A DNA stretch of 64,000 bases from Hysterangium stoloniferum. Taxonomy: Eukaryota; Basidiomycota; Agaricomycetes; Hysterangiales; Hysterangiaceae. Each line of letters begins with the position of its first letter. The stretch's first letter is position 1. Shown piece after piece: positions 2,954 through 57,239 of this stretch. Location of the stretch: assembly GCA_015178975.1 (NCBI GenBank), contig WHVD01000078.1:310001-374000 (forward strand), read 5' to 3'. The notes under the pieces are model-generated. The model saw only the letters and a program-made list of their open reading frames with translations, did no database searches and was not told where the DNA came from. Made by a program: the position numbers and the translations under genes.

Positions 2954-5280
2954 TGTTATGACCAGAATTCCTGCCAGACTCTGTGCACTAACTTATGTGC
3001 ACCTGCACCCTATACACACCAATTGTCAGTTTACCAGAAAACCCGCCAGACTCTGTATGTCAGACCTGTCCACGTTCAACTTTGTTACTTCATGTATCAG
3101 TCACCAGAATACCTGCCAGACTCTGTCCCTGTCTATCTCCAACCCTGTCCCACACATCAGTCACTGGACCCTGGTCAGCCCTCTAACTGAGCCCCATTCC
3201 CATTATAGTCAAATGACCTGTCACAATTTGGACTCCACTCCTGCCCTGTTTCCCATTATGGTTTTATGACCTGTCATGATTTGGACTCTGCTCCATTCCG
3301 TCCCATTCTTAACACCAAGTTTGGTGTTTATTTATCTCGTTTTATGTTTGTTAGTTTAGTTTTCATTATTACTGGATTTGGTATGTTATTCATTCCACAG
3401 TCTATATAGTCTGGCAGATGTTGTACATACAATCCAGTCAGAAAATCAGCTTAGATTCTCCCCAGTAATCTTAGTATGTTTTCCACTCTAAATTCCTCTT
3501 TGAAACACACTGCTCTTATTCGTCAGAGCCCATGGGCTCTGACGCATCTATCACTCGGCCTCTGACTTATCAATCTCGACTCCCTGACCTCTTGACCCAC
3601 AAACCCCACCTGGACTCCTGGGATTCCCATCTGCCCATTTGAAATTGGACAAGATGATCTAGTGAGGGTGCAGCCTATAAGCTGAAGCCAAGTCCTACCA
3701 GCTTTCCCACAGGTTTCTCTGGAAACCCTCCGTGTACGCACCTTAACAGTATTTTCTGACTAAGACTCGCAGATTGTTCAATATGCCACCAAGAAGAAAA
3801 GCACACATACAGGAATCATTACCTGGACCATCGACTCTTCATTCCCCACTTACTTTGTATACCAGCCAGACACTCACAAACCAGCTGGAAGCCATGGAAG
3901 AAGCCTGTATCAAAGAAGTCCCGGAAAACCAGGACAAATCCGAGCACAAGGACGAGTCTGTGGCTCCCAACAAGGGCAAGGGTGTCGAAAATTCCCCATC
4001 TAATGACCAACCACCACTTTCAGATCCTGCTTCCGAGTATTTAGCAATCACTTTAGAAAGGTTGATGAATCATATGCTTGGAGAAGGCAAAAAGAAGGAT
4101 CTGGAACCTCTGCAGTCAAAAGTCAATGCTCTGGAACCCTTCATGGGTTCCAACTCAAACAAACTTTCCACTTTCCTCATGCAATGTCACTTCAATTTCC
4201 ATGATCGATCTGCTGCATTCTCCATGGACTCCTGAAAAGTCAACTATGCACTTTCATACTTGTTGGGATCTGCATTGAAATAGTTTGAACTGGCTTTTAG
4301 CGGACTTTCTGAGGAAGAGCCACTTTGGCTTGAAGATTGGGATGCTTTTGTTGAGGAGCTAGAAACCAACTTTGGCCCATATGATCTGACCGGAGAAGCC
4401 AGAACAGTCTCACTAATCTTTGTATGAAGGACATGCAGCACATCATGGACTATATTGTCCAATTCAATAATCTTGCAGCTTGTTGTCAGTGGGACAATCC
4501 TGCTCTCTGCCACCAATTCTATGCTGGTCTGCTGTCCCACCTTAAAGACAGAGTCTCAAAAGGAGGAGATGGCAAGCCAAAAACACTGTCCCATATGCAT
4601 CTCAAGGCTCAAAACATGGATACATGCTATTGGGAACGTTGCATGGAAGTTGCCCATGAGACCTCCACAGACAAAGTGAACAAGTCCATGGCCAATAAAA
4701 ACAACAACAACACTTCATCCACCAGCAACCAAAACTCCACGGAATCCAATAAGAAGAACAATAAAAATTCTTCTAACAACAACATCTGCCAGACTATATA
4801 GACTGTGGAATGAATAACATACCAAATCCAGTAATAATGAAAACTAAACTAGCAAACATGAAATGAGATAAATAAACACCAGCAACCAAAACTCCACGCA
4901 ATCCGACAAGAAGAATGATAAAAAGTCTTCTAACAACAACAACAACAACAACAAAGGTCAACAGTCTAGCAAGCAAACCAGAAAACCTAACCTCACAGGC
5001 AAGCTCGGACCTGATGGCAAATTGACCCCACAAGAAAGGCAACGTTGAATGGACAATAATCTTTATCTCTTGTGTGGGAAACCCAGTCATTGAGTTCCGG
5101 AATGTCCACTGGCAAAAGCAAACTCTGCAAAAGGTCAAACAGCCAAGACTTCCTCCACAGAGTTTGAAACTCCGTCAAAGGACAAACCAGCTTCTGACTT
5201 GAAAAAAGAGTAAGCAACCCTGCATACTCCATGCAGGTTGGGGGTTGTGTTGCCTCTCCACACATTTGTAATGTATTAGC
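2954..5280 (+). mobile_element. Ty3 chromovirus family A: 5' LTR and gag region, 3' part lost
   Basis: The LTR at 2954-3748 (795 bp) starts TGTTATGACC and ends CCTTAACA. It holds a TATA box (3403), a conserved box ending ATAAGCTGAAGCC near its 3' end, and a putative self-primer site. The leader is followed by a gag-like region from the ATG at 3783 (MPPRRKAHIQESLPGPS; later FMGSNSNKLSTFLMQC), a weak CCHC-like segment near 5060-5100, and the gag-end hairpin at 5214-5238. No protease, RT or integrase follows. It is an old, CpG-poor fossil with several breaks. A duplicated gag stretch encloses an inverted scrap of LTR (see findings). Confidence 0.8.
3403..3446 (+). promoter_or_regulatory. LTR A TATA box and putative RNA 5' end / self-primer
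   Basis: TATATA at 3403, then GTCAGAAAAT at 3437-3446, 34 nt downstream. That sequence is the exact complement of ATTTTCTGAC at 3751-3760, which begins 3 nt after the LTR. This is the arrangement expected if the 5' end of the RNA folds back to prime reverse transcription, as in Tf1. The transcription start is inferred. Confidence 0.6.
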
Positions 5281-12232: not shown

Positions 12233-12330
12233 GATACCCCTCTAATTTCCAACTCCATTATCTATTCACGACCACCATATTCCAACTCCATCCGATTTAC
12301 AATTCAACTTACATTTACGACTTCAACCTC

Positions 12331-12893
12331 TAATCTCCAACTCTCTCAGTCTCCAACTCTCTCAGTCTCCGACTCTCTCAGTCTCTGACTCTCTCAGTCT
12401 CTGACTCTCTCAGTCTCTGACTCTCTCAGTCTCTGACTCTCTCAGTCTCCGACTCTCTCAGTCTCCGACTCTCTCAGTCTCCGACTCTCTCAGTCTCCGA
12501 CTCTCTCAGTCTCCGACTCTCTCAGTCTCCGACTCTCTCAGTCTCCGACTCTCTCAGTCTCCGACTCTCTCAGTCTCCGACTCTCTCAGTCTCCGACTCT
12601 CTCAGTCTCCGACTCTCTCAGTCTCCGACTCTCTCAGTCTCCGACTCTCTCAGTCTCCGACTCTCTCAGTCTCCGACTCTCTCAGTCTCCGACTCTCTCA
12701 GTCTCCGACTCTCTCAGTCTCCGACTCTCTCAGTCTCCGACTCTCTCAGTCTCCGACTCTCTCAGTCTCCGACTCTCTCAGTCTCCGACTCTCTCAGTCT
12801 CCGACTCTCTCAGTCTCCGACTCTCTCAGTCTCCGACTCTCTCAGTCTCCGACTCTCTCAGTCTCCGACTCTCTCAGTTCCGACTCTCAGTTC
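12331..12893. repeat. 14-bp minisatellite (CTCTCAGTCTCCGA)
   Basis: About 40 near-identical units with early C/T variants at the left edge and a homogeneous core. It keeps one CpG per unit, unlike the surrounding old LTR DNA, which suggests recent amplification. Confidence 0.92.
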
Positions 12894-21780: not shown

Positions 21781-22080
21781 TGTTATGACCCGTTCCCAGA
21801 TGTTTCAATATCTGACTTCCAACTTCCAACCTCCGACTATGGAACATCATAGTTACCGTATCTTCTGCATTCTTCCCTTGTTCCACATTTGGTAATTTGT
21901 CTGTTGACAAGTATTCACTCATTTGTTTTATTATATTCCCATTTCAAAATATTGTCTCCCCAATTCATCTTGTTGTATTCCCATTTCAGAATACTTCCAT
22001 TTCCATCTTATTGTGGTCTTAGTTTGTAGTACAATAACGAGAAGACTTATATTAGTTTCCACGAATTTGTACTTTACTTT

Positions 22081-22345
22081 AGATCTGATATCAACTTGGT
22101 TTCTTATTCCCTCTTCCATCTTTCTGTACACTCGATATTCAGAACTCTTTGGAACTCTGAATATCCGTATCTTCCATCATAAGTCTCACCTTTGAAATTA
22201 AGGACTTTTGAGCATTTGCATAGAGGTGCAGCATATAAGCTGAAGCCAACATCCTGACCCTATCCAATAGTTCCTGACTTCCCGGTGACTTTCCAATAGT
22301 TCCAGAATAAGTTCCCGACATGGCACTTAACAGTATATCAGATCT
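22081..22345 (+). promoter_or_regulatory. Element B self-primer pair: LTR site and primer-binding site
   Basis: AGATCTGATAT at 22081-22091 inside the 5' LTR is the exact complement of ATATCAGATCT at 22335-22345, which begins 3 nt after the LTR end. A TATATT box lies 33 nt upstream, at 22048. Same geometry as families A and C. Confidence 0.7.
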
Positions 22346-30860: not shown

Positions 30861-31634
30861 CCGGGGTAGTGATGAACAATGGCCAATGAATTGACATGCA
30901 AGTTGTGGATAAAGAAACAAAATCATTAATTCGAATATTTGGAGGTTTTTATACTCAGACCAGCAGCTGAAACTCTCACCTCCAGAATTGTGTAAATTTC
31001 ACAACACATAACAATCAGCCGTCACTTCAATCACTCAGTACCTTATCGCCTCTATGGGACTTCAGCCTAACAGGGGGGTAGTGTTATGACCTGTTCTAAG
31101 ATGTTTCAATATCCAACCTCCGACTTCTGAACCTCTGACTATGGAACATCATAGTTACCGTATCTTCTGCATTCTTCCCTTGTTCTGCATTTGGTAATTT
31201 GTCTGTTGACAAGTATTCACTCATTTGTTTTACTATATTCCCATTTTGGAATATTGTCTCCCCAATTCGTCTTGTTGTATTCCCATTTCAGAATACTTCC
31301 ATTTCTGTCTTATTGTGGTCTTAGTTTGTAGTACAATAACGAGAAGACTTATATTAGTTTCCACAAATTTGTACTTTACTTTAGATCTGATATCAACTTA
31401 GTTTCTTATTCCCTCTTCTGTCTTTCTGTATGCTCGATATTCGGAACTCTTTGGAACTCTGAATATCCATATCTTCCATCGTAAGTCTCACCTTTGAAAT
31501 TAAGAACTTTTGAGTGTTTGCATAGAGGTGCAGCACATAAGCTGAAGCCAATGTCCTGACCCTATCCGATAGTTCCTGACTTCCCGGTGACTTTCCAATA
31601 GTTCCAGAATAAGTTCCCAACACGGCACTTAACA

Positions 31635-32383: not shown

Positions 32384-35300
32384 CTAACAGATAGCAGGAT
32401 CAGCACCATTAGCTAAGAGGAGCTGGACTACATCTAAATGACCATTTCTGGTTGCAAGTATCAGGGCAGTGCCTTCAGAGGTCTGGACATTGGGATCAGC
32501 CCCCTTGGCTAAGAGGAGCTGGACTACATTTAAATGACCATCTATTGCTGCAAACATCAGGGCAGTGCCTGTGGAGTTCTGGACATTGGGATCAGCTCCC
32601 TCAGCTAAGAGGAGCTGGACTACACCTAAATGGCCATCTATTGCTGCAAGCATCAGAGCAGTGCCATTAGAGGTCTGGAGATTGGGATCAGCACCAGTAC
32701 TTAAGAGGAGCTGGACTACATCTAAATGACCATGTATTGCTGCAAATATTAGGACAGTGCCTTCAGATGTCTGCACATTGGGATTAGCCCCCTTGGCTAA
32801 GAGGAGTTGGACTACATCTAAATTACCATCTTTTGCTGCAGCCATCAGGGCAGTGCCTTTCGAGGTCTGGACATTGGGATCAGCATCATTGGCTAAGAGG
32901 AGCTGAACTACATCTAAATGACCATGTCTTGCTGCAAGCATTAGGGCAGTGCCTTCAGAGGTGTGGACATTAGGATCAGCTCCCTTGGCTAAGAGTTGCT
33001 GGACTACATATGAATGATCATTCCTTGCTGCAAGCATCAGGGCAGTGCCTCTAGAGGTGTGGACATTGGGATTAGCTCCATTGGCTAAGAGGAGTTGGAC
33101 TACCTCTGAATGACTATTTTGTGCTGCAAACATCAAGGCAGTTCCTTCAGATACCTGGGGATTGGGGTCAGCTCCTTTGGCTAAGAGGAGAAGGATGATT
33201 GCTAAATGGCCATTCATAGCTGCAAACATCAGGGCAGTCCCTTCAAAAACCTGGACATTGGTATCAGCTCCCTGGTCTAAGAGGAGCTGGGCTACATCTA
33301 ATTTGCCATTTCTTGCTGCAAACATCAGGGCAGTGGCTTTAGAGGTCTGGACATTGGGATCAGCATCATTGGCTAACAGGAGCTGAATTACATGTAAATG
33401 CCCATTTCTTACTGCAAACATTAATGCAGTGCCTTCAGAGGTCTGGACATTGGGATCAGCACCCTTGGCTAAGAGTTGTTGGACTATATCTGAATGACCA
33501 TTTTGTGCTGCAAGCATCAAGGCAGTGCCTTCAGAGGTGTGGACATTTGGATCAGCACCATTGGCTAATAGGAGCTGGACAACATTCAAATGACCAACCA
33601 TTGCTCCAAACATCATGGCAGTGCCTTGAGAGGCCTGCACATTGGGATCAGCACCATTGGCTAACAGGAGCTGGACAACATTCAAATGGCCAGCTATTGC
33701 TGCAAACATCAGGGCAGTGCCTTGAGAGGCCTGCACATTGGGATCAGCATCATTGGCTAACAGGAGCTGGACAATACTCAAATGACCAGCTATTGCTGCA
33801 ACCATCAGGGCAGTGCCTTGAGAGGCCTGCATGTTTGGATCAGCTCCCTTGTTGAAGAGAAACTGGAATACAACATGGTCAACTATTGTGGGACCTATTA
33901 GGGCAGTGCCTGCTGAGATCTGGACATTGGTGTCAGCTCCCATGTATATAGGGGGATGGAGTACACCTAAAAGACAAACTATTGTTGTAGAAAATAGGGC
34001 AGTGTCCTCAGAGGCCTGCACATCAGGAGCAGCACCATTTGCTAAGAGGAGCTGAACTATCTCTAAATGACCATTTGTTGCTGCAGCCATCAGGGCAGTG
34101 CCATGAGAGGTGCAGACATTGGGATCAGCCCCCTTGGCTAAGAGAAGCTGGACTACATTAGAATAACCATGTCTTGCTGCAAGCATCAGTGCAGTGCCTT
34201 CAGAGGTCTGAACATTGGGATCAACACCTTTGGCTAAGAGGAGCTGGACTACATCTAAATAACCACCTCTTGCTGCAAGTGTCAGGGAAGTGTCCTCAGG
34301 AGCCTGGACATTGGGATCAGCCCCCTTGGCTAAGAGAAGCTGGACTACATTAGAATGACCATTTCTTGCAGCAAGCATTAGTGCAGTGCCTTTAGAGGTC
34401 TGGACATCAAGATCAACAACTTTGGCTAAGAGGAGCTGGACTGCATCTGAATGACCACCTCCTGCTGCAAGTGTCAGGGCAGTCCCTTCAGAAACCTGAA
34501 CATTGGGATCAACACCTTTGGCTAAGAGGAGCTGGACTACATCTAAATAACCACCTCTTGCTGCAAGTGTCAGGGCAGTGTCCTCAGAAGCCTGGACATT
34601 GGGATCAGCCCCCTTGGCTAAGAGAAGCTGGACTACATTAAAATGACCATTCCTTGCGGCAAGCATTAGTGCAGTGCCTTTAGAGGTCTGGACATCAAGA
34701 TCAACAACTTTGGCTAAGAGGAGCTGGACTGCATCTGAATGACCACCTTCTGCTGCAAGTGTCAGGGCAGTCCCTTCAGAAACCTGAACATTGGGATCAA
34801 CACCTTTGGCTAAGAGGAGCTGGACTACATCTAAATAACCACCTCTTGCTGCAAGTGTCAGGGCAGTGTCTTCAGAAGCTTGAACATTGTGATCAGCCCC
34901 CTTGGCTAAGAGAAGCTGGACTACATTAGAATGACCATTTCTTGCAGCAAGTATTAGTGCAGTGCCTTCAGAGGTCTGGACATCAATATCAACACCTTTG
35001 GCTAAGAAAAGCTGGACTACATCTGAATGACCACCTCTTGCTGCAAGTGTCAGGGCAGTCCCTTCAGAAGCCTGAACATTGGGATCAACATCTTTGGCTA
35101 AGAGGAGCTGGACTAAACCTAAATCACCATCTGTTGCCACAGCCATCAGGGCAGTGCCTTCAGAGTCCTGGACATTGGGATCAGCACCATTGGCTAGGAG
35201 GAGCTGGACTATATTAGAATGACTATGTCTTGCAGCAAGCATCAGTGCAGTGCCTTTAGAGGTCTGGACATCAAGATCAACACCTTTGGCTAAGAGGAGC

Positions 35301-38026
35301 TGGACTACATCTAAATAACCACTTCTTGCTGCAAGTGTCAGGGCAGTGTCCTCAGAAGCCTGGACATTGGGATCAGCCCCCTTGGCTAAGAGAAGCTGGA
35401 CTACATTAGAATGACCATTTCTTGCAGCAAGCATTAGTGCAGTGCCTTTAGAGGTCTGGACATCAAGATCAACACCTTTGGCTAAGAGGAGCTGGACTAC
35501 ATCTGAATGGCCACCTCTTGCAGCAAGTGCCAGAGCAGTGCCTTCAAAAACCTGGGTATGGGGATCAGCCCCCTTGGATAGGAGGAGCTGGACTATATCC
35601 AAATGACCAGCTCTTGCTGCAAATATCAGGGCAGTGCCTGCAGAGTCCTGGACATTGGGATCAGCTCCCTCAGCTAAGAGGAGCTGGACTACACCTAAAT
35701 GGCCATCTATTGCTGCAAGCATTAGAGCAGTGCCTTTAGAGGTCTGGATATTGGGATCAGCACCAGTACCTAAGAGAAGCTGGACTATATCTAAATGACC
35801 ATATATTGCTGCAAAAATTAGGACAGTGCTTTCAGATGGCACATTGGGATTAGCCCCCTTGGCTAAGAGAAGCTGGACTACATTAAAATGACCATTTATT
35901 GCAGCAAGTATTAGTGCAGTGCCTTTAGAGGTCTGGACATCAATATCAACACCTTTGGCTAAGAGGAGCTGGACTATATCTGAATGACCACTTCTTGCTG
36001 CAAGTGTCAGAGCAGTCCCTTCAGAAGCCTGAACATTGGGATCAACATCTTTGGCCAAGAGGAGCTGGACTATATCTAAATCACCATCTGTTGCTGCAGC
36101 CATCAGAGCAGTGCCTTCAGAGTCCTGGACATTGGGATCAGCACCATTGGCTAGGAGGAGCTGGACTATATTAGAATGACTATGTCTTGCAGCAAGCATC
36201 AGTGCAGTGCCTTTAGAGGTCTGGACATCAATATCAACACCTTTGGCTAAGAGGAGCTGGACTACATCTGAATGACCACCTCTTGCTGCAAGTGTCAGAG
36301 CAGTCCCTTCAGAAGCCTGAACACTGGGATCAATACCCCTGGCTAAAAGGAGCTGGACTATATCTAAATCACCATCTGCTGCTGCAGCCATCAGGGCAGT
36401 GCCTTCAGAGTCCTGGACATTGGGATCAGCACCATTGGCTAGGAGGAGCTGGACTATATTAGAATGACTATGTCTTGCAGCAAGCATCAGTGCAGTGCCT
36501 TTAGAGGTCTGGACATCAAGGTCAACACCTTTAACTAAGAGGAGCTCAACTACATCAAAATAACCACCTCTTGCTGCAAGTGTCAGGGCAGTGTCCTCAG
36601 AAGCCTGGACATTGGGATCAGCCCCCTTGGCTAAGAGAAGCTGGACTACATTAAAATGACCATTTCTTGCAGCAAGCATTAGTGCAGTGCCTTTAGAGGT
36701 CTGGACATCAAGATCAACAACTTTGGCTAAGAGGAGCTGGACTACATCTGAATGACCACCTCTTGCAGCAAGTGCCAGAGCAGTGCCTTCAGAGGTCTCA
36801 ACATAGGGATCAGCACCATTGGCTAGGAGGAGCTGGACTACATCTAAATAACCCTCTATTCCTGCAAGCATCAGGGCAGTGTATCCAGAGTGCTGGATAT
36901 TGGGATCAGCCCCTCTGGCTAAGAGTAGCCGGACTATATTTAGCCGGGCTACATCTGAATGATCATGCTTTACTGCAAACATCAAGGCTGTTCCTCTAGA
37001 GCTCTGGACATTGGGATCAGCATCCTTGTCCAACAATTGCTGAACTACATATGAATGACCATTTGATGCTGCTAACAGCAGGGCTGTTCCTTCAGAGGTC
37101 TGGACATTAGGATCAGCATCCTGGGCCAACAGTAACTGAACCACATATGAATGACCATTTGTTGCTGCTAACATCAAGGCTGTTCCTCTAGTGGTCTGGA
37201 TATTGTGATCAGCATCATTCACTAAGAGAATATGGACTACATCTGAATGACCATTCAATGCTGCTAATATCAGTGGTGTTCCTTCAATGGTCTTGACATT
37301 AGGATCAGCACCCTTGACTAAGAGAACTTGGACAACCTCTGAGTGACCACTCATTGCTGCTAACATTAGGGCTGGACCCTCAGGGGTGTGAATATTGGAA
37401 TCAGTAACCTCAGGTAAGAGCAGCTGGACTACATCTGAATGACCATTTATTATGGCTAATGTCAGGGCTGTTCCTTTAGCAGTCTGGGCATTGGGATCAG
37501 CATCCTTGGTTAACAGTAGCTGGACTATATCTGAATTCCCACACTCTGTGGCCAGCATTAGGGCTGTTCCCATAGGAGTCTGGATATTGGGATCAGCACT
37601 ATTTGCCAACAGGAGTGGGACTATCTCCATATGTCTATGATTTATTGCAGTGACCAAGGCTGTTCCCTCAGGGATGTGGGCATTGGGATCAGCACCCTTG
37701 GCTAAGAGTTGCTGGACTACATCTGAATGACCATTTCTTACTGCAAATATCAGGGCAGTGCCTTCAGAGGTCTGTATATTGGGATTCACACCCTTGGCTA
37801 AGAGAAGTTGGACAATATCTAAATAACCATGGCTTGCTGCAATTATTAGGGCAGTGTCTTTAGAGGTCTTGACATGGGGATCTGCACCATTTGCTAACAG
37901 GAGGTGGGCAACATCCAAATGACCATTTTCCAATGCTATCATCATGGCTGACTTTCCCCATAGCTTGATATTTGGATCAGCACCATCTTCTAATAAAGCC
38001 CTGGATATATTATAAAGTCCATGACA
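32384..38026 (-). repeat. 99-bp ankyrin-coding tandem array
   Basis: About 57 units of 33 codons with consensus DPNVQTSEGTALMLAARNGH and then a VVQLLLAKGA helix. Most units are highly alike at DNA level. Exceptions are one unit with four extra residues (near 36930), one with a small loss (near 35850), and a degenerate unit near 33960. By eye only about four CpG dinucleotides occur in the array. Confidence 0.93.
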
Positions 38027-40894
38027 TGCTGCCATATACAATGGGTGTCTCAGCTTCCACCACATGCTATCTTCATATTTCATCCACAGTTCAAATTGCT
38101 GGCTTCTATCCTGAAAGAGCTTCATGATTAGATTGTGACACTTTCTCAAAGAATTCTGGCTGCCCAATTTTGCATGAAAAACCCAGTTTTTAGCACTATA
38201 TTTGGCAAGAGGATGCTGCTTTGTCACAGCTGAAAGACTCCAATGTGATGGAATGATCCCATGTTGAAACTGAAGTAAATATATTATGCACATTTTGGTG
38301 ATATTATCATGTGACAATTTCTCCTCAATATAGAAGTCTGTAACTTGCTGTCCCATTGAAGTTTTTGTCATAAGAAATTCCTTTACTGAAAAATGAGCCA
38401 ATTTGATTGCATCTACATTATCAAGATTAGCAACTTAGCCCTTCCTCCAGCAATCAGTTATCCAATACCCACCATATGAATTAACAATGAGACCAGAGCA
38501 AACATTGAGAACATCACTGGAATCATCATATACATCTCCAGGATTGAAAGGGGATGCTTGACTACCAATTTCATAATTAGTATTTATTCCTGTGACTTGA
38601 ACCAATTGTCCAATTCCCAGGGGCTCTACAGAAAAAGCCACCCATTGTAAGAACTTTAGCACATCTGCTTGCTGTCTTCCAGGAACCTTTTGGATCATCT
38701 TAGTATAAGTTTCATTGAGAGTAACTGGAAGTGTTTCAAGTTGTGCCTTCATGTGACCAGCACTGTAACAGGTGGAGAGTTCCTGCACCTGTAATGCAAC
38801 CCATCTAAACCTGAAGTATACACAACCTTAGTGTTATACTTCATGGAAGGTATATGAATCACATACATTCCCTCAGCCTTTTCATTTAGTGTCCTAAAAA
38901 TCTTTTCCTGAAGAGCTCTGTCTAAAGAGGCAAACCGCTTCACCTTCTCAAATCTATCATAGAGATAGATTGAGATGTCCGGGTTAACTCTTGTATTGTG
39001 CAATAGTAAAGATCGAGAACCAAGAGCATCTAACTCTGTTTGAATTGATGGCTCTGGACGGGTAGTTGCTAGAATATGCAGATTGTCTAATTTCTGAGCT
39101 AGTAAACTTTGAAGCCATTCAAGGAGCTTTGATCTTTCAGAACATTCATCCAAGGCATCTAAAACAATATACACATGTTTAAACCTCCCTACCAGATCAC
39201 AGAATACACCTTGAAAAGCCTTCAAGGATGCCTGTTGAGTCCCATTGCCAAAGATTTGTAACAGAGGGCAAGGAATGTCAAAACACATTGCACAGAGCTG
39301 TTTAAGGAGAGATTTGATTAGTTTATGAAGGGATTGAAACTCCTCTCGGGAATCCCGTGAATCAAAAAAGAAATAGGCAATTGCATTCAACCTATAATCA
39401 CCACAGTACTCTTGAAGGTTTTTGATTATAGAGGAACTGCCAGACTGTCAGCATGTCTGAAGAATGGAACAAAGCTACTCTCTCTCACCATAGAATTGTT
39501 TTGCCACAGCCAGCTGAAAAGTACCAAGTCAGATAAGGTCAATGCCTCACACCCAAACATACAACTTCCATATATCCAGAGAGATTCACCCCCAGTTTTT
39601 ACCCATTGTGTAAACTGAGTACTGTTGAGAAACCATGATCCTGTTCCCTCAACATGCTGTTCTTGGGCAGCATTCAAATTGTTAGATGGATCTGGGGCAC
39701 CAAGCCATGTGTACACTCTGTCACGAAGTTCTTGAGTGTCTAGACATTTTATACAGTGAATCCATTTGATACATTACAAGAGGTATGCAGGATGAACTTT
39801 ACCTGGGTTGTTGGTCGACCACTTCGGCAAAATACCAGATGGTGCTTTTTCCACCATTCGTAGTAAGTTCCGAGCCAGTGTGAAATAATCATCATCCATT
39901 GAGCTGAACTGTACAAGACCCATATGATTCTTGTGAAGACCAAAGACCTCTGTGTTTGTTGAGCCCGGCACGATGGCAGAGAAAATAGGGACATGCTACA
40001 AGCGACTGTCAAAGAAAACCGGTGAGGGTAGCTAATCTACTTACCGTTGATGAACCACCTTGTACTTTAGTCGGGTATACCTCATAGCAAAATATTGTGT
40101 GATACCTAATACTGATGGCATTATATAGCATTAGCTGTTGTTGCAATGTCTCCGAATGCAGTCCCAAGTGCTTTAAAAGAGGGTCATTTATTAGAGAGTT
40201 GATTGAAAGGCACTTTAGCAGAGAATGAGTCCAGCTTGTAAGATCAATACCCTGATGTGGCGTGCCCAAGTAAATGACACCATAAGTTGAGCTTTCAACG
40301 GCCTTGTGCTCTGGGAGATGTTTGGCACCGGCTATGTGGGCATGGATCAGTGCCTATAATGTATGAGTCAGTCATCTGAAATGAGGCGATGTCATTCTTT
40401 CATACATTTTTCAGCATTATCCCACCAAAACTATGTGCGACGAAGATCAAAGGCCGTTGCTACAAGGGATAGGTTACCAAGCCCTAATATCAAGATAAAC
40501 TACTCACATCAGTCTTTGTGTCGACTCTATAGTTGGATAAATGTGCAATGAAGTTGGTGGATAAGTCGTACAACCCTTGTTGAGATCTATTCTCGCCCCG
40601 AGTGCGTGCGTCATAGCCGTACGTTAGAATCCTCGCGTTAGGAATCAATCTTGGTAATAAATCTCGCAGCCAAAGGACGCCATTGGGAGCAGTGAAGGAT
40701 GTCTCACGGTGTCCATCGAGGCCGTGAATGGCGACGATACTGAGAGGAATGTTTGTGAATGCGTAGTTGGGATTTTTTTCTCGGACTTACTCGACGGTTG
40801 GGGAATCACCTCCAGACACGAGCTCTTTGACCCCATAATCGAATGTTCCGCCAGATGGCATCAGTGATATAGAAGGTGATAAGACCGTAGACAT
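32384..40894 (-). CDS. NLR/STAND receptor: alpha/beta-hydrolase, NACHT, about 57 ankyrin repeats
   Basis: Predicted 2,676-aa intracellular receptor. Exons: 40894-40791, 40739-40508, 40459-40406, 40353-40045, 39995-39803, 39739-39563, 39513-39489, 39436-38867, 38810-38473, 38412-32384. All introns are GT-AG, 46-63 nt, and the total is an exact multiple of three. Residues about 36-235 are a lipase-like hydrolase: HGLDGH, nucleophile elbow AHSFGG (Ser122) and GTPHQG. NACHT: Walker A WIYGSSGCGKT (352-362) and Walker B IVLDALDE (about 455-462). A winged-helix-like segment ends LAHFSVKEFL, and ankyrin repeats fill about 796-2676. In this class of fungal NLR the repeats sense ligand, NACHT oligomerises and the N-terminal enzyme executes a response, often heterokaryon incompatibility or defence. 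The ligand here is unknown. A TAA in the raw frame near 38435 is removed by the 60-nt last intron. Confidence 0.87.
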
Positions 40895-51134: not shown

Positions 51135-51565
51135 TGTTACGACCGTGTTGCAACCCTATCGGCCCCGAGGTTATCGCCACTTATCAACGATTCAAGTTAC
51201 TATTCGAGTCACCACTTCGGAAACCCTCGGCCCTGAAGCTGACGTATATTTTCGCGATGATCAAACTCCGTTTATGCCCACATCAAAATAACTCGTATTG
51301 TCTGGTTAAACTTTTGATACGTCCCTTTTACTATGTTGATCCGTTCAATCTTATGTTCACATATGCCTATCTATATTTGTAGTCCTTGAACTATTTCCTT
51401 TTATTGTAATTCCATTCTCAGTTATCATCGGCCTCCAAACTAATCATAAACCTCCCGTTCCTAGTCAAGCTTATTGTTAATACCATTTTCCGCCTTCCTC
51501 CCCGTTAGTATTTCCTAGATGCCTGTTACTTGTATATGAACTCGCTGTAGTTGTAGTTAATAGGC

Positions 51566-52702
51566 AATCAGAATATTGACTTAGAATCCCCCCATACGTC
51601 TGTAACAACCTCATACTAAGAATTTCCTCTTCTGCCTTCGCGTGCGCTCGCCCACTCCCGGCCCCGACCCCCTGGCCCAACACTCGACTTACCCTTCAGT
51701 CCCGATCGGTATCTCACCAAAAGGAACTCCCTGTTAGGATACACACACAGGCTGGGTTTCTGGAGAAACCCGCGGGATATCCGGTAGGACTTGGCTTCAG
51801 CTTATACTGCGCCCTTGCTAGATCGTGTTGTCCAATTTCTGACAGGCGGACGGGAATCCCGGGGAGTCCGGGCAGGGTTCGTGAGTCGTAAGTCGTAGGT
51901 TGTAGGTCGTGAGTCGTGAGTCGTGTTGGTTGAGAGAGATAGAATGCGCCGGAGCCCGTGGGCTCCGACTAGCTTAAGCGGTCTGATGAGAGTAAGGTTT
52001 AGAGAGGAAAATGCTATTAGATTACTGGGGGAATCTAAGCTAATTTTCTGACTGGATTGTATGTACAACATCTGCCAGTTTATATAGACCATGGAGTGAA
52101 TGAACATACTAATCTGGTAATAATGAAAACGAAACTAACAAAACATAAACGGGAATAGTAAACACCAAATTTGGTGTTAGGAATGGAATGGAACGGAGCG
52201 GAGTCCGAATCGTGACAAAGCATAACCCATAACGGGAAACGGAGCGGGAGCGGAGTCCTAATCGTGACAGGTCATTTGACTAAAACGGGAACGGGGCTCG
52301 GTTAGAGTGGTGACGGGATTCTGAGCGGGATCCGGTGACTGATACGTGGGACGAAGACGGACATAGACAGAGACGGAGTCCAGGGGAAGTCCGGTGACTG
52401 ATATGTGTCGTACTGAGGTCGAACGTAACGAGTCTTGACGTAACGGAGTCCGGGCAGGAAATCCTATAAACAGACGATTGGTGCTTGTAGCGTGTGGGGG
52501 CATACGAGTTAGTGCCTGGAGTCTGGCGGGATTGTCCAGTCGTAACACTCCCTAGGATTAGTCTTTGTCCGTCCGAAATTTAAGGACACCCTGTGGATAT
52601 TTGTGAGGGCGCAGCACATAAGCTGAAGCCGAGTCCTTCCGATTGGTCCCTGTCGGCCACCGACATTAGTCAGTTTTCAGTACTTAACAGTATATTCTGA
52701 TT
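51566..52702 (+). promoter_or_regulatory. Element C self-primer pair
   Basis: AATCAGAATAT at 51566-51576 inside the LTR is the exact complement of ATATTCTGATT at 52692-52702, which begins 3 nt after the LTR end. A TATAT block lies 33 nt upstream, at 51533. Confidence 0.7.
51732..52547 (-). mobile_element. Solo LTR, family A, inside the element C 5' LTR
   Basis: 816 bp, TGTTAGGATACAC ... GTCGTAACA, with a perfect 5-bp duplication ctccc (51727-51731 and 52548-52552). The element C 3' LTR shows the empty site (ctcct followed by taggattag). CpG-rich, so family A was active after element C arrived. Confidence 0.92.
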
Positions 52703-54012
52703 TCACACTAGCATTTTCCACTTTAATCATGCCTCCAAGGAAAAATGCCAAGCCAAGCGGTGAAGCAGAATCTTCCACTCTCAAGTCTCCTTTCCTGTAT
52801 ACAGCCTGAGCTACTCAGAGAACCCCGCTACCAGAAACCTCTGAAGAATCTCACTTTGTGGAGATTACTGGCGATGCTGAAGAAGTAACTGAAGCAACCG
52901 AACCCAAAGCAACTGAAGAGATTAACAATCAACCAGTTCCGGAACTCGAACCCGAGGATGGCGACCAACCTGAGGCTAGTGGTTCCAAGTCCGCAAAAAA
53001 GAAACCAGCTCTCGACCCTGAAGAGACATGGGAATTGTTCTCAGGTACCCTAGGATCCCTTAACAAATTCCTTAAAAGCAATATCAAGGAAAAAGAACCT
53101 GGGCAAACCCAAGTCAACAAACCCAAACCATTCACTGGCTCAAACCCGAAGAAATTACTGACATTTCTTATGCAATGTCGATTCAATTTTCGGGACCGCC
53201 CGGCTGCATTCGCAATGGATGACCTAAAGGTAAACTTTGCACTCTCATACCTTAAGGATTCCGCAGCAGCCTGGTTTGAACCTGCATTCTCTGGCCTCAC
53301 CTCCGAAGATCCCGATTGGCTTCACCATTGGGATGCCTTTGTAGAGGAACTTGAAACAAATTTCGGTCCCTATGACCAAACCGGCAATGCTGAAACTGCG
53401 CTTTCTAATCTCAAAATGAAAGACACCCAGCGCATCACCGACTACATCGTCCAGTTCAACAACCTCGCCGTGCGTTGCGACTGGGGCGATTTGGCCCTCT
53501 GATACCAGTTTTACTCCGGCCTCCCGTCTCGCCTCAAAGACGAAGTTTCCAAAGGAGAGACCGGCAAGCTGAAGACCCTCCCTCTCATGCGTCTGAAAGC
53601 CCAAAATGCAGATGCCCGATATTGGGAACGATGTTTGGAAATTAGTCGTGAAAACCCCTCAGACAAGAAATCGTCGGACAATAAAAATGCCAACAAGTCT
53701 GGTAATCAAAACACCAACAACAGTGGCAACTCAAATTCCGATAAGGAGTCCAAAAACAAAGGGGCAAACGACAAAAAAGGCAAGGGAAAACAGTCGAATA
53801 AGTCTCAAGACAAAGACAAACCTGACTTAACTGGCAAACTCGGCTCCGATGGCAAGCTTCTACCACAGGAAAAGCAATGCCGAATGGACAACAACCTTTG
53901 TTTGTTGTGTGCAGATCCAGGACACCGAGTCGCTGCCTGCCCAAAGGCCACAAAAGCCCGATCAGCCACTACAGCCACGACCTCCCAACCAGCTAAGCCG
54001 GCTGCTGAGTCG

Positions 54013-54059: not shown

Positions 54060-57000
54060 GTTGAATCTCCTCGCACACCGGAAAATTGTCACCTTAACGC
54101 ATCCGCCTTGTATGATCCTAATTCCTTGTTCATAAATCTTACTTCGGAACCTCTCGGGAGTCTCACCTTTCGAGCCTCATAGATTCAGGTTCAACCCATT
54201 GTTTTATAGATACAAGTTTTTCCCGAAAAAATCAGTTAAAAACCTATGCAATAGACCCAATTCTGCTTCGACTCTTTGATGGTACCTCAAACTCCGTAAT
54301 CTCGCAAACCTGCAAACTCCGACTTCGGTTCCCATGTGGAACTTTTCAGACAGTTACGTTCTTTGTAACACAGTTGGACCCGAGTCGCTCCGTGGTTCTA
54401 GGACATAACTGGATCACCTGCTACAATCCATTGATTGATTGGGTATTGGGCAGTATCCATTTTCGAACCCCATCAGCACCCGATACGACTGGTCCATTTC
54501 TGCCTGTTTCAGCAAATATGGCCTCTACAGCACCGCTGGCCCTCGTGGCAAATCCGAGCTCTCCGCCGCCCGTCTCTCTAATAAATGCTGCAGCTTTTAT
54601 GAGAGCCATCAAGTTGGATGGCTCCCGAGCATTTACAGTCAATCTCAAAGTTGACGAAGTCACCGGTCGCTTTGCATCCCGGTGGCTGAACTGATCGCAG
54701 ATTTGGAAGGTGTTCCCAAAAAATACCATGAATTTGCAGATGTCTTCAGTAAACAAAAAGCCGATCGACTTGCCCCTCACAGGCCTTACAATTTGAAAAT
54801 TGATATTGAAGATGGTTCACATCCGCCCCTAGGCCCAGTTTATCCTCTCTCACAGTCCGAATTATTGGCTATCCGAGATTTCTTGGATGAACATTTGGCT
54901 ATAGGTTTTATCCGACCCTCAAAGTCTCCTTATGGAGCCCCTGTCCTATTCGTTCGGAAAAAAGACGATTCCCTTCGGCTTTGCGTTGACTTTTGAGGAC
55001 TAAATGCGATCACTCGAAAAGATAAGTACCCGTTACCACTAATCTCCAATCTACTTGATGCCCCTTGGAAGGCCCGAATTTATACAAAGATAGATCTCAA
55101 GCACGCCTATCATTTGGTTCGGATCGCCGAAGGCGACGAATGGAAAACAGCTTTTCGCACTCGCTATGGCTCCTTTGAATGGTTAGTGATGCCTTTCGGC
55201 CTCACCAACGCTCCATCAGTCTTTCAACATTTTATCAACGACGTCTTTTCCGACCTCCTCGACGTTTTTGTCATTGTGTACTTAGACAACATCCTCATAT
55301 TCTCCGAAGATCCTAGACTTCATGACAAACATGTTCGTGAAGTTCTCCGAAGACTCCGAAAACATGGTCTTTTTGTGAATGGTAAAAAATGTTCTTTTGA
55401 TGTCGACACAGTTGAATACTTAGGTTTCATGATGGGACCTGACGGTCTCCACACGGACGACACTAAAATTCAAGTCATTCAAGATTGGCTGGAACCCCGA
55501 AAGGTTAAAGACATTCAGTCCTTTTTAGGCTTTGCCAATTTTTATCGTCGTTTCATTCACAACTACACAGTTAATCCGCATAATTGCAAGCCTATGTTTT
55601 CATCGGAACAACTGTCCGCGTCTATCCGAGCCACTTACCTCATTCATCCAGTCTTGCGAAGTGTTATCCTTATGGATGCCGAAAAGTTACATCAAGACAT
55701 ACTATCGGCAATTCCATTAGACCCAGTCACCAAAGCACACCTCGATAACCCATCCGACCCCGATCAACCCCGATGGTCATTAGACTCACAAGGTTTTATT
55801 AGATTTGACAATCGCATTTATGTACCGGACTCCGACACCCTTTGGCTGCGAATCCTACAGCATAAGCATGACCACCCAGTCTCGGGACATTTCGGCCTCA
55901 ATAAGACCCTCTCACTCATTAGAAGAGAATATACATGGCCCGGCATCCGAGATTTCGTTAAGCACTATTGTAAATCTTGTACTACGTGTTTACGCTCTAA
56001 ATCACAGTGACACAAACCATATGGCCTACTCAAACAATTACCGATACCGGAAAAACCCTGGAACTCAATTTCTATGGATTTCATTGAGCACCTACCGGCA
56101 TCCAAAGGTCACACAGCAATCCTAGTTGTTGTGGATCAGCTTACGAAACAAAGTATTTTTATTCCAACATATGACACGATAACATCAGTACAGTTAGCCA
56201 AACTATTCATCACCCATGTATTTTCCAAGCATGGCGTTCCATCACATGTCACATCCGATTGTGGATCCAAGTTTGTCTCTCACTTCTTTAGGTCACTCGG
56301 AAAAGCACTAGACATGAAGTTACATTTCACTTCAGGCTATCACCCAGAAGGCGATGGCCAAACCGAATGCATGAATCAAACCTTGGAACAATACATCTGT
56401 GTCTATTGCAACTATCAACAAGACAATTGGAAATCACTACCACCGCTAGCCGAATTCGCATATAACAATGCACTGAATGCCACCACTGGCATTTCACCTT
56501 TCTTTGCAAATCAAGGCTACAACCCCAACATCGCAATCCACCCAGAACGCAATCCCGCATCCACCCATGCTCAAGACTTTGTTATAAACCTTGACGAGCT
56601 ACATCAAGAACTTCGTAAAATTATCGCAATGGCTCAAGAACGATACCAACGGTCTGCAGATAAGAACCGACTTCTGCCCCCTGACTTCAAGATCGGAGAC
56701 TGAGTATTCATTAAAGCTGAGTTCTTCCAAACTACTAGACCTTCTAAGAAGCTCTCTGAAAAATATTTAGGTCCTTTTGAAGTTATAGCACAAGCAGGCA
56801 CGCTTTCATGGACGCGTCGGCTCCCCGACAACATGTGTGCAGTACACCCGGTATTTCATGTATCTATGTTAGGACCTTGTGTTCCTAACAGTATACCGGA
56901 TCGCATACAACCACCACCTCCACCCATGATTATTGATGGGGAACCCGAATTCGAGATATCAGAGATCCTAGACTCAAAAATCGACAATCGCCGATGCTCA

Positions 57001-57239
57001 TGCAAATTACTTTATTTGGTCAAATGGGCTGGCTATGAAGGTACAGATGAAGAAACTTCATGGATCCTAGCTACCAAGCTCGGTAATGTCTCGGAAATCG
57101 TTTTAGGGTTTCACTAAGCTTATCCGAACAAACCCGGTCCTCTCAATTTTTTATAAGTCTATCACACGGTATCCGACCTTTTCCTGACTATGCACTTATG
57201 ATTTTCACGCTATGTTTTTGTTTGTTTTTAAAACCGATA

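Follow-up and report, generated by a model that had tools for sequence, protein, structure and literature searches.

Self-priming of reverse transcription was first worked out on Tf1, a long terminal repeat (LTR) retrotransposon of fission yeast. The first 11 bases of Tf1 RNA are described as complementary to the primer-binding site (PBS), with RNase H cutting between bases 11 and 12 (PMC7175516), and the RNA is said to form a "pretzel" of three duplexes, one between primer and PBS and two between the flanks of the PBS and the LTR behind the primer (PMC10085805). Self-priming has been proposed for Tj1 (PMC4600332) as well as for elements of fungi, vertebrates and plants (PMC6317226, PMC10085805). 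Plant Tcn1 and TAR self-primers were called by at least 10 bp of complementarity starting 0 to 5 bp behind the 5′ LTR (PMC6317226), and one study of the spikemoss element SM-Tcn1 is reported to have found no sign that it self-primes (PMC2864245). Here we describe three LTR retrotransposons (A, B and C) in a 64,000-nucleotide (nt) window of Hysterangium stoloniferum (contig WHVD01000078.1, positions 310,001 to 374,000), which, judging from their sequences, very probably represent self-priming families of the Tf1/sushi kind. Since the mechanism has been published, the finding is no surprise; its occurrence in many families is likewise already in print, and what is new is the membership of these families.

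An earlier reading of the window (hereafter the sequence-only reading) had paired a short leader sequence behind each 5′ LTR with a site inside the same LTR, and all three exact pairs were confirmed where it had placed them. Complementarity is exact over 11 nt in A, B and C, and base 12 is unpaired in all three. The lengths of 10 to 11 nt given earlier held for B and C at 11 nt, and the A pair is also 11 rather than 10 nt long once one further base on each side is included. Each primer site occurs once per LTR, and the leader sites begin at base 3 behind the LTR, after a terminal CTTAACA followed by GT, as had been described. A TATA-like box, previously put 33 to 34 nt ahead of the LTR site, begins exactly 33 nt before it in A, B and C alike. 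Of 20,000 dinucleotide-shuffled versions of each LTR, 3 for A, 12 for B and 9 for C contained the required 11-mer by chance. When the leader offset was slid from 1 to 200, the only other complement of at least 10 nt outside the offset-3 match was one of 11 nt in C at offset 20 (52006-52016, inside a nested A-type LTR), which we take to be chance.

To follow the pair beyond the window, the 111-Mb genome was searched with a pattern consisting of a conserved motif in the U5 part of the LTR, a spacer of 48 to 78 nt and TTAACAGTAT; because the pattern fixes TTAACAGTAT, bases 1 and 2 of the leader site were unable to vary. The whole pattern, running from the U5 motif across the LTR end into the leader, occurs at 518 places (reversed control pattern: 0). 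Pairing was read in 120 copies, comprising the first 100 listed of these places and 20 further B copies. A scan upstream of the leader, reaching at most the last 900 bases before the U5 motif, found Watson-Crick pairs at all 11 positions in 65 of the 100 sampled copies, at 10 in 14, at 9 in 9 and at fewer in 12; YRRCT follows the site in 64 of the 65 perfect cases (background: 0.0082 per base). The LTR site was also located independently of the leader, by a TATA-like box and the following YRRCT, an anchor that was picked after viewing copies and was ambiguous in 7 of 84 copies, where the place closest to the LTR end was used. Among the 84 copies located in this way, 60 pair at 11 positions, 12 at 10, 4 at 9 and 8 at 2 to 5; two of the weak copies combine an A-type site with a C-type leader, as if an A LTR had inserted into C. 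The fraction of copies paired at positions 1 to 11 was 0.98, 0.95, 0.93, 0.93, 0.93, 0.89, 0.90, 0.88, 0.90, 0.89 and 0.87, respectively, and dropped to 0.12 at position 12. The TATA-like box lies at 33 nt in 62 of the 84 and at 34 nt in 14 (76 of 84 together). Shuffling leaders among the 84 copies yielded a mean of 27.5 and a maximum of 41 perfect pairs in 2000 shuffles versus the 60 observed. Six types of perfect pair were present (ATATTCTGATT, ATTTTCTGACT, ATTTTCTGATC, ATATCAGATCT, ATTTTCTGACC and ATATTCTGATC, each with its complement), differing at positions 3 and 5 to 11, each time on both sides. The alignment of LTR and leader across copies that had been suggested as a check for compensatory change thus returned paired sites that change in step between families. 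The further B copies (20 of 40 B-family matches, selected for reaching the leader, which favours B-like leader sites) pair at 11 positions in 17 cases and at 10 in 3.

We consider it very improbable that the leader site instead binds a tRNA (intact or cleaved into halves) or some other small RNA of the host, with the LTR match a by-product. Such priming by tRNA is the usual mode among LTR retrotransposons, and our comparison took in 20 of 62 tRNA matches (14 ARAGORN-called tRNA genes), with tRNAs alone among small RNAs. Nevertheless, the leader sites have no TGG start, their longest tRNA complement is 5 nt in A, 4 nt in B and 5 nt in C, and over offsets 3 to 6 the complement to the 20 tRNA loci does not exceed 7 nt, so that the tRNA control proposed earlier brought up no rival primer among these loci; nor would tRNA binding account for an LTR site that tracks leader changes over exactly 11 positions. 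The recurrence of a core (TCAGAAAAT/ATTTTCTGA) across many copies, and the fact that an RNA fold could serve packaging too, would suit two sites forming an inverted repeat with some other job, for example as a transcription factor site or in packaging or dimerising the RNA. To this we give a similarly slight chance, as the fixed place right behind the LTR, the sharp 11-nt edge and the constant spacing from the TATA-like box accord with a primer and would be unexpected for a protein site, and a packaging role leaves the 11-nt edge unexplained. Least credible of all is that pairing across copies is inherited identity from a few founders whose chance match was copied many times: two types do account for most copies, with 40 and 14 perfect pairs out of 60, and among 29 distinct pairs the 6 perfect ones compare with a shuffled mean of 1.7 but a shuffle maximum also of 6, yet three families with different primers each match independently (odds of about 1 in 1,700 to 1 in 6,700), six perfect types exist, and pairing collapses between positions 11 and 12 though the flanks are inherited too.

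A second duplex is predicted in all three families, in which a U5 arm directly ahead of the motif GGYGCAGCNYATAAGCTGAAGCC pairs with the leader directly behind the PBS, the arm sequences differing by family. In the window it comprises 13 bp with one bulge in A and 10 bp in three runs in C, and is weaker in B (-7.4). When A, B and C of the window were pooled with the 76 sampled copies that have 9 or more primer pairs, giving 79 sequences, its mean z-score against shuffled leaders was -2.11 (A type: -2.43, n = 17; C type: -2.31, n = 46); mononucleotide shuffles were the reference for these z-scores as well as for those of the further B copies and of the hairpin below. Seventeen of the 20 further B copies gave a mean z of -2.05, the remaining 3 being without the anchor. 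Mean duplex energy over 69 distinct sequences was -10.98 with a copy's own leader versus -9.01 with leaders of other types. The outer helix of C covaries, with 163 of 215 cells paired in 43 distinct sequences versus a shuffled mean of 147.9, and none of 2000 within-family shuffles reached 163. For the covariation analysis, helix positions were derived from the predicted duplexes of example copies, and each of four slides tried reduced pairing in all five helices. A candidate for the third duplex (3 bp, RCU with AGU) hardly varies among copies. In 22 RNAs that we chose and folded without pseudoknots, the mean pair probability of the primer duplex exceeded 0.75 in 17; window C, whose 5′ LTR has another LTR inside it, was left out for that reason. 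Since the U5-leader and primer duplexes cross each other, folds of this kind cannot contain both.

Self-priming is favoured because pairing is kept in most copies read, changes in step between families, stops at 11 nt, keeps its distance from the TATA-like box in 76 of 84 located copies and is joined by a Tf1-like second duplex; with the lack of a tRNA rival among the 20 tRNA loci, these points support the proposal of the sequence-only reading that one mechanism operates in all three families. Several results weigh on the other side. In the upstream scan, 35 of the 100 sampled copies lack a perfect 11, some of them being visibly nested, cut or mutated. Seven of the 100 have unrelated sequence at the leader site and are presumably 3′ or solo LTRs with host DNA behind them, but no target duplication was found in the 2 of the 7 that have the LTR start in view; among 50 normal copies, where none was expected, it likewise gave 0 matches. 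Pair types are not fully independent, the families being related, and the shuffle maximum of 6 among distinct pairs has been given above. The second duplex has a mean z of only -1.18 in the B type (4 rows) and a z of +0.6 in the B copy L170, and the small types span -2.4 to +1.04 (ATTTTCTGATC: -1.19, n = 3; ATATTCTGATC: -0.78, n = 2; L071: -0.04; L130: +1.04); copies of the ATTTTCTGATC type (3 sequences) and of the ATATTCTGATC type (2 sequences) pair less well with their own leaders than with those of relatives. Within-family covariation was not significant in the C inner helix or in the A inner, middle and outer helices (1347, 216, 2000 and 152 of 2000 shuffles, respectively, reach the observed value). 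In 5 of the 22 folded RNAs, window A included (0.27), the primer duplex has a pair probability below 0.3. Finally, no RNase H match was found in the pieces of C that were scanned; self-priming requires RNase H, and a deletion in this copy is probably responsible.

If these families do self-prime, transcription would start some 33 nt downstream of the first base of the TATA-like box, and the RNA would begin with the 11-nt site. These first 11 nt would fold back onto the PBS to which they are complementary, 3 nt behind the 5′ LTR, in a fold held together by the predicted U5-leader duplex just behind the PBS (present in the three families, with one covarying helix) and possibly also stabilised by the 3-bp RCU/AGU duplex just before it. 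By analogy with Tf1, the element's RNase H would cut after nucleotide 11, and the released 11-mer would prime minus-strand DNA, leaving GT between the LTR and the PBS. Retroviruses copy their tRNA primer in plus-strand DNA. We suggest, tentatively and with rather less than even confidence, that the PBS may be rewritten from the self-primer in each replication round by plus-strand copying of the 11-nt RNA. Were this so, a single mutation in the LTR site would alter both sites, families could move to new primer sequences rapidly and without constraint, and the boundary at 11 nt would be that of the copied primer and not a selection limit on pairing.

The sequence-only reading had stated that Tf1/sushi elements self-prime with an 11-nt segment at the RNA 5′ end, which the Tf1 literature bears out (PMC7175516). 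The Hysterangium elements resemble Tf1 and Tf2 of Schizosaccharomyces pombe in the 11-nt complementarity of PBS and LTR site in A, B and C and in the Tf2-1-like SH3 domain of C, and the primer and U5-leader duplexes correspond to two of the three duplexes described for Tf1 (PMC10085805). They differ in that the primer sequence varies between families and in the presence of several families, with 518 candidate places, in one genome; the 23-nt U5 motif common to their LTRs may be another difference. Tj1 of S. japonicus and Tosmo1-3 and Tcry1 of other fission yeasts can likewise form the pretzel on paper (PMC10085805); those are reported as single fission yeast elements, whereas pairing was read here in 120 copies. 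The plant Tcn1 and TAR lineages share self-primer complementarity just behind the 5′ LTR (PMC6317226) but are other lineages in other hosts, TAR being Ty1/copia. On pretzel folds combined with compensatory change, nothing closer than the fission yeast paper (PMC10085805) was found among the matches listed. The 518 candidate places in several families offer natural variation from which to read how the RNA folds, the primer length of 11 nt and how the two sites change jointly. They also call for caution in annotation, as a search for tRNA primer-binding sites alone would miss these elements.

The features of the three elements are collected in the table.

Table. Positions in the window of the LTRs, putative priming sites and predicted duplex arms of elements A, B and C
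Element	Feature	Position	Strand	Remark
A	5′ LTR (TGTTATGAC ... CTTAACA)	2954-3748	+	
A	TATA box	3403-3408	+	begins 33 nt before primer site
A	self-primer site AGTCAGAAAAT, putative first 11 nt of RNA	3436-3446	+	RNA 5′ end inferred
A	U5 arm of second duplex	3653-3666	+	predicted, -13.7 kcal/mol; runs 3653-3660 and 3662-3666, one bulge
A	conserved U5 motif GGTGCAGCCTATAAGCTGAAGCC	3667-3689	+	
A	PBS ATTTTCTGACT in leader	3751-3761	+	
A	leader arm of second duplex	3766-3778	+	predicted
B	5′ LTR	21781-22332	+	3′ LTR at 31082-31634
B	TATA-like box	22048-22053	+	begins 33 nt before primer site
B	self-primer site	22081-22091	+	
B	conserved U5 motif	22225-22247	+	
B	PBS	22335-22345	+	
C	5′ LTR	51135-52689	+	inverted A-type solo LTR inside (51732-52547)
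C	TATA-like box	51533-51538	+	begins 33 nt before primer site
C	self-primer site	51566-51576	+	
C	U5 arm of second duplex	52593-52607	+	predicted, -10.6 kcal/mol; runs 52593-52597, 52602-52604 and 52606-52607
C	conserved U5 motif	52608-52630	+	
C	PBS	52692-52702	+	
C	leader arm of second duplex	52708-52721	+	predicted
C	integrase end, Tf2-1-like SH3 domain and weak chromodomain match	56704-57114	+	

The LTRs of A, B and C start with TGTTAYGAC and end with CTTAACA. The solo LTR that interrupts the 5′ LTR of C is flanked by a perfect 5-bp duplication (CTCCC, 51727-51731 and 52548-52552), and its presence accounts for the apparent length of the 5′ LTR. In profile searches, pieces of C matched gag, protease, reverse transcriptase and integrase, with SH3_Tf2-1 at 53.7 bits (cutoff 30) and Chromo at 23.0 bits, just under its cutoff of 25.1. 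Pieces of B matched gag, reverse transcriptase and RNase H (RT_RNaseH: 85.1 bits), with no chromodomain or SH3_Tf2-1 match in the 12 pieces scanned, and the sole match among the 4 pieces of A was a weak one to gag (20.1 bits, under the cutoff of 24.1). The label of chromovirus that the sequence-only reading had attached to all three families is therefore supported, at the level of these domain matches, for C through SH3_Tf2-1, and found no backing in the pieces of B and A. Reverse transcriptase and integrase zinc-binding matches of C (54997-56007) lie in one frame, 135 residues apart, with no RNase H between them. Reading frames in A, B and C are broken into pieces, and the copies therefore look decayed. 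By eye, the sampled copies (L031-L130) show frequent C to T and G to A differences, often at CpG (for example, GCGAG/GTGAG/GCAAG in the U5 arm), a pattern like that left by methylation decay or repeat-induced point mutation. A further 237 places in the genome carry TTAACAGT followed by C, G or T and would mostly be LTRs followed by host DNA.

The 23-nt U5 motif common to the LTRs of all three families (G[GA][TC][GA]CAGC...TAAGCTGAAGCC) has 10 matches on the plus and 6 on the minus strand of the window, that is, the three element sites and 13 further places; adjoining the U5 arm of the second duplex, it may be a recognition element. Two other candidate pairings were tried and rejected. One, a local hairpin joining the U5 motif to the end of the LTR, differed in look from family to family, but its folding energy barely beat that of shuffled sequence (mean z -0.68, with a z of -1 or lower in 27 of 66). 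In the other, CRRCTTAG, a motif just behind the primer, was set against TAAGCTG in the U5 motif; by eye this gave 7 bp in A but mismatches in B and C, and the U5 side was fixed by the search pattern.

Elsewhere in the window, an uninterrupted frame of 2005 residues with ankyrin repeats in 96-base units occupies 32384-38401 on the minus strand, and a tandem array whose repeat period is about 16 bases lies at 12328-12888. The best Protein Data Bank (PDB) matches of one gene in the window are two chains named "alanine aminotransferase 2".
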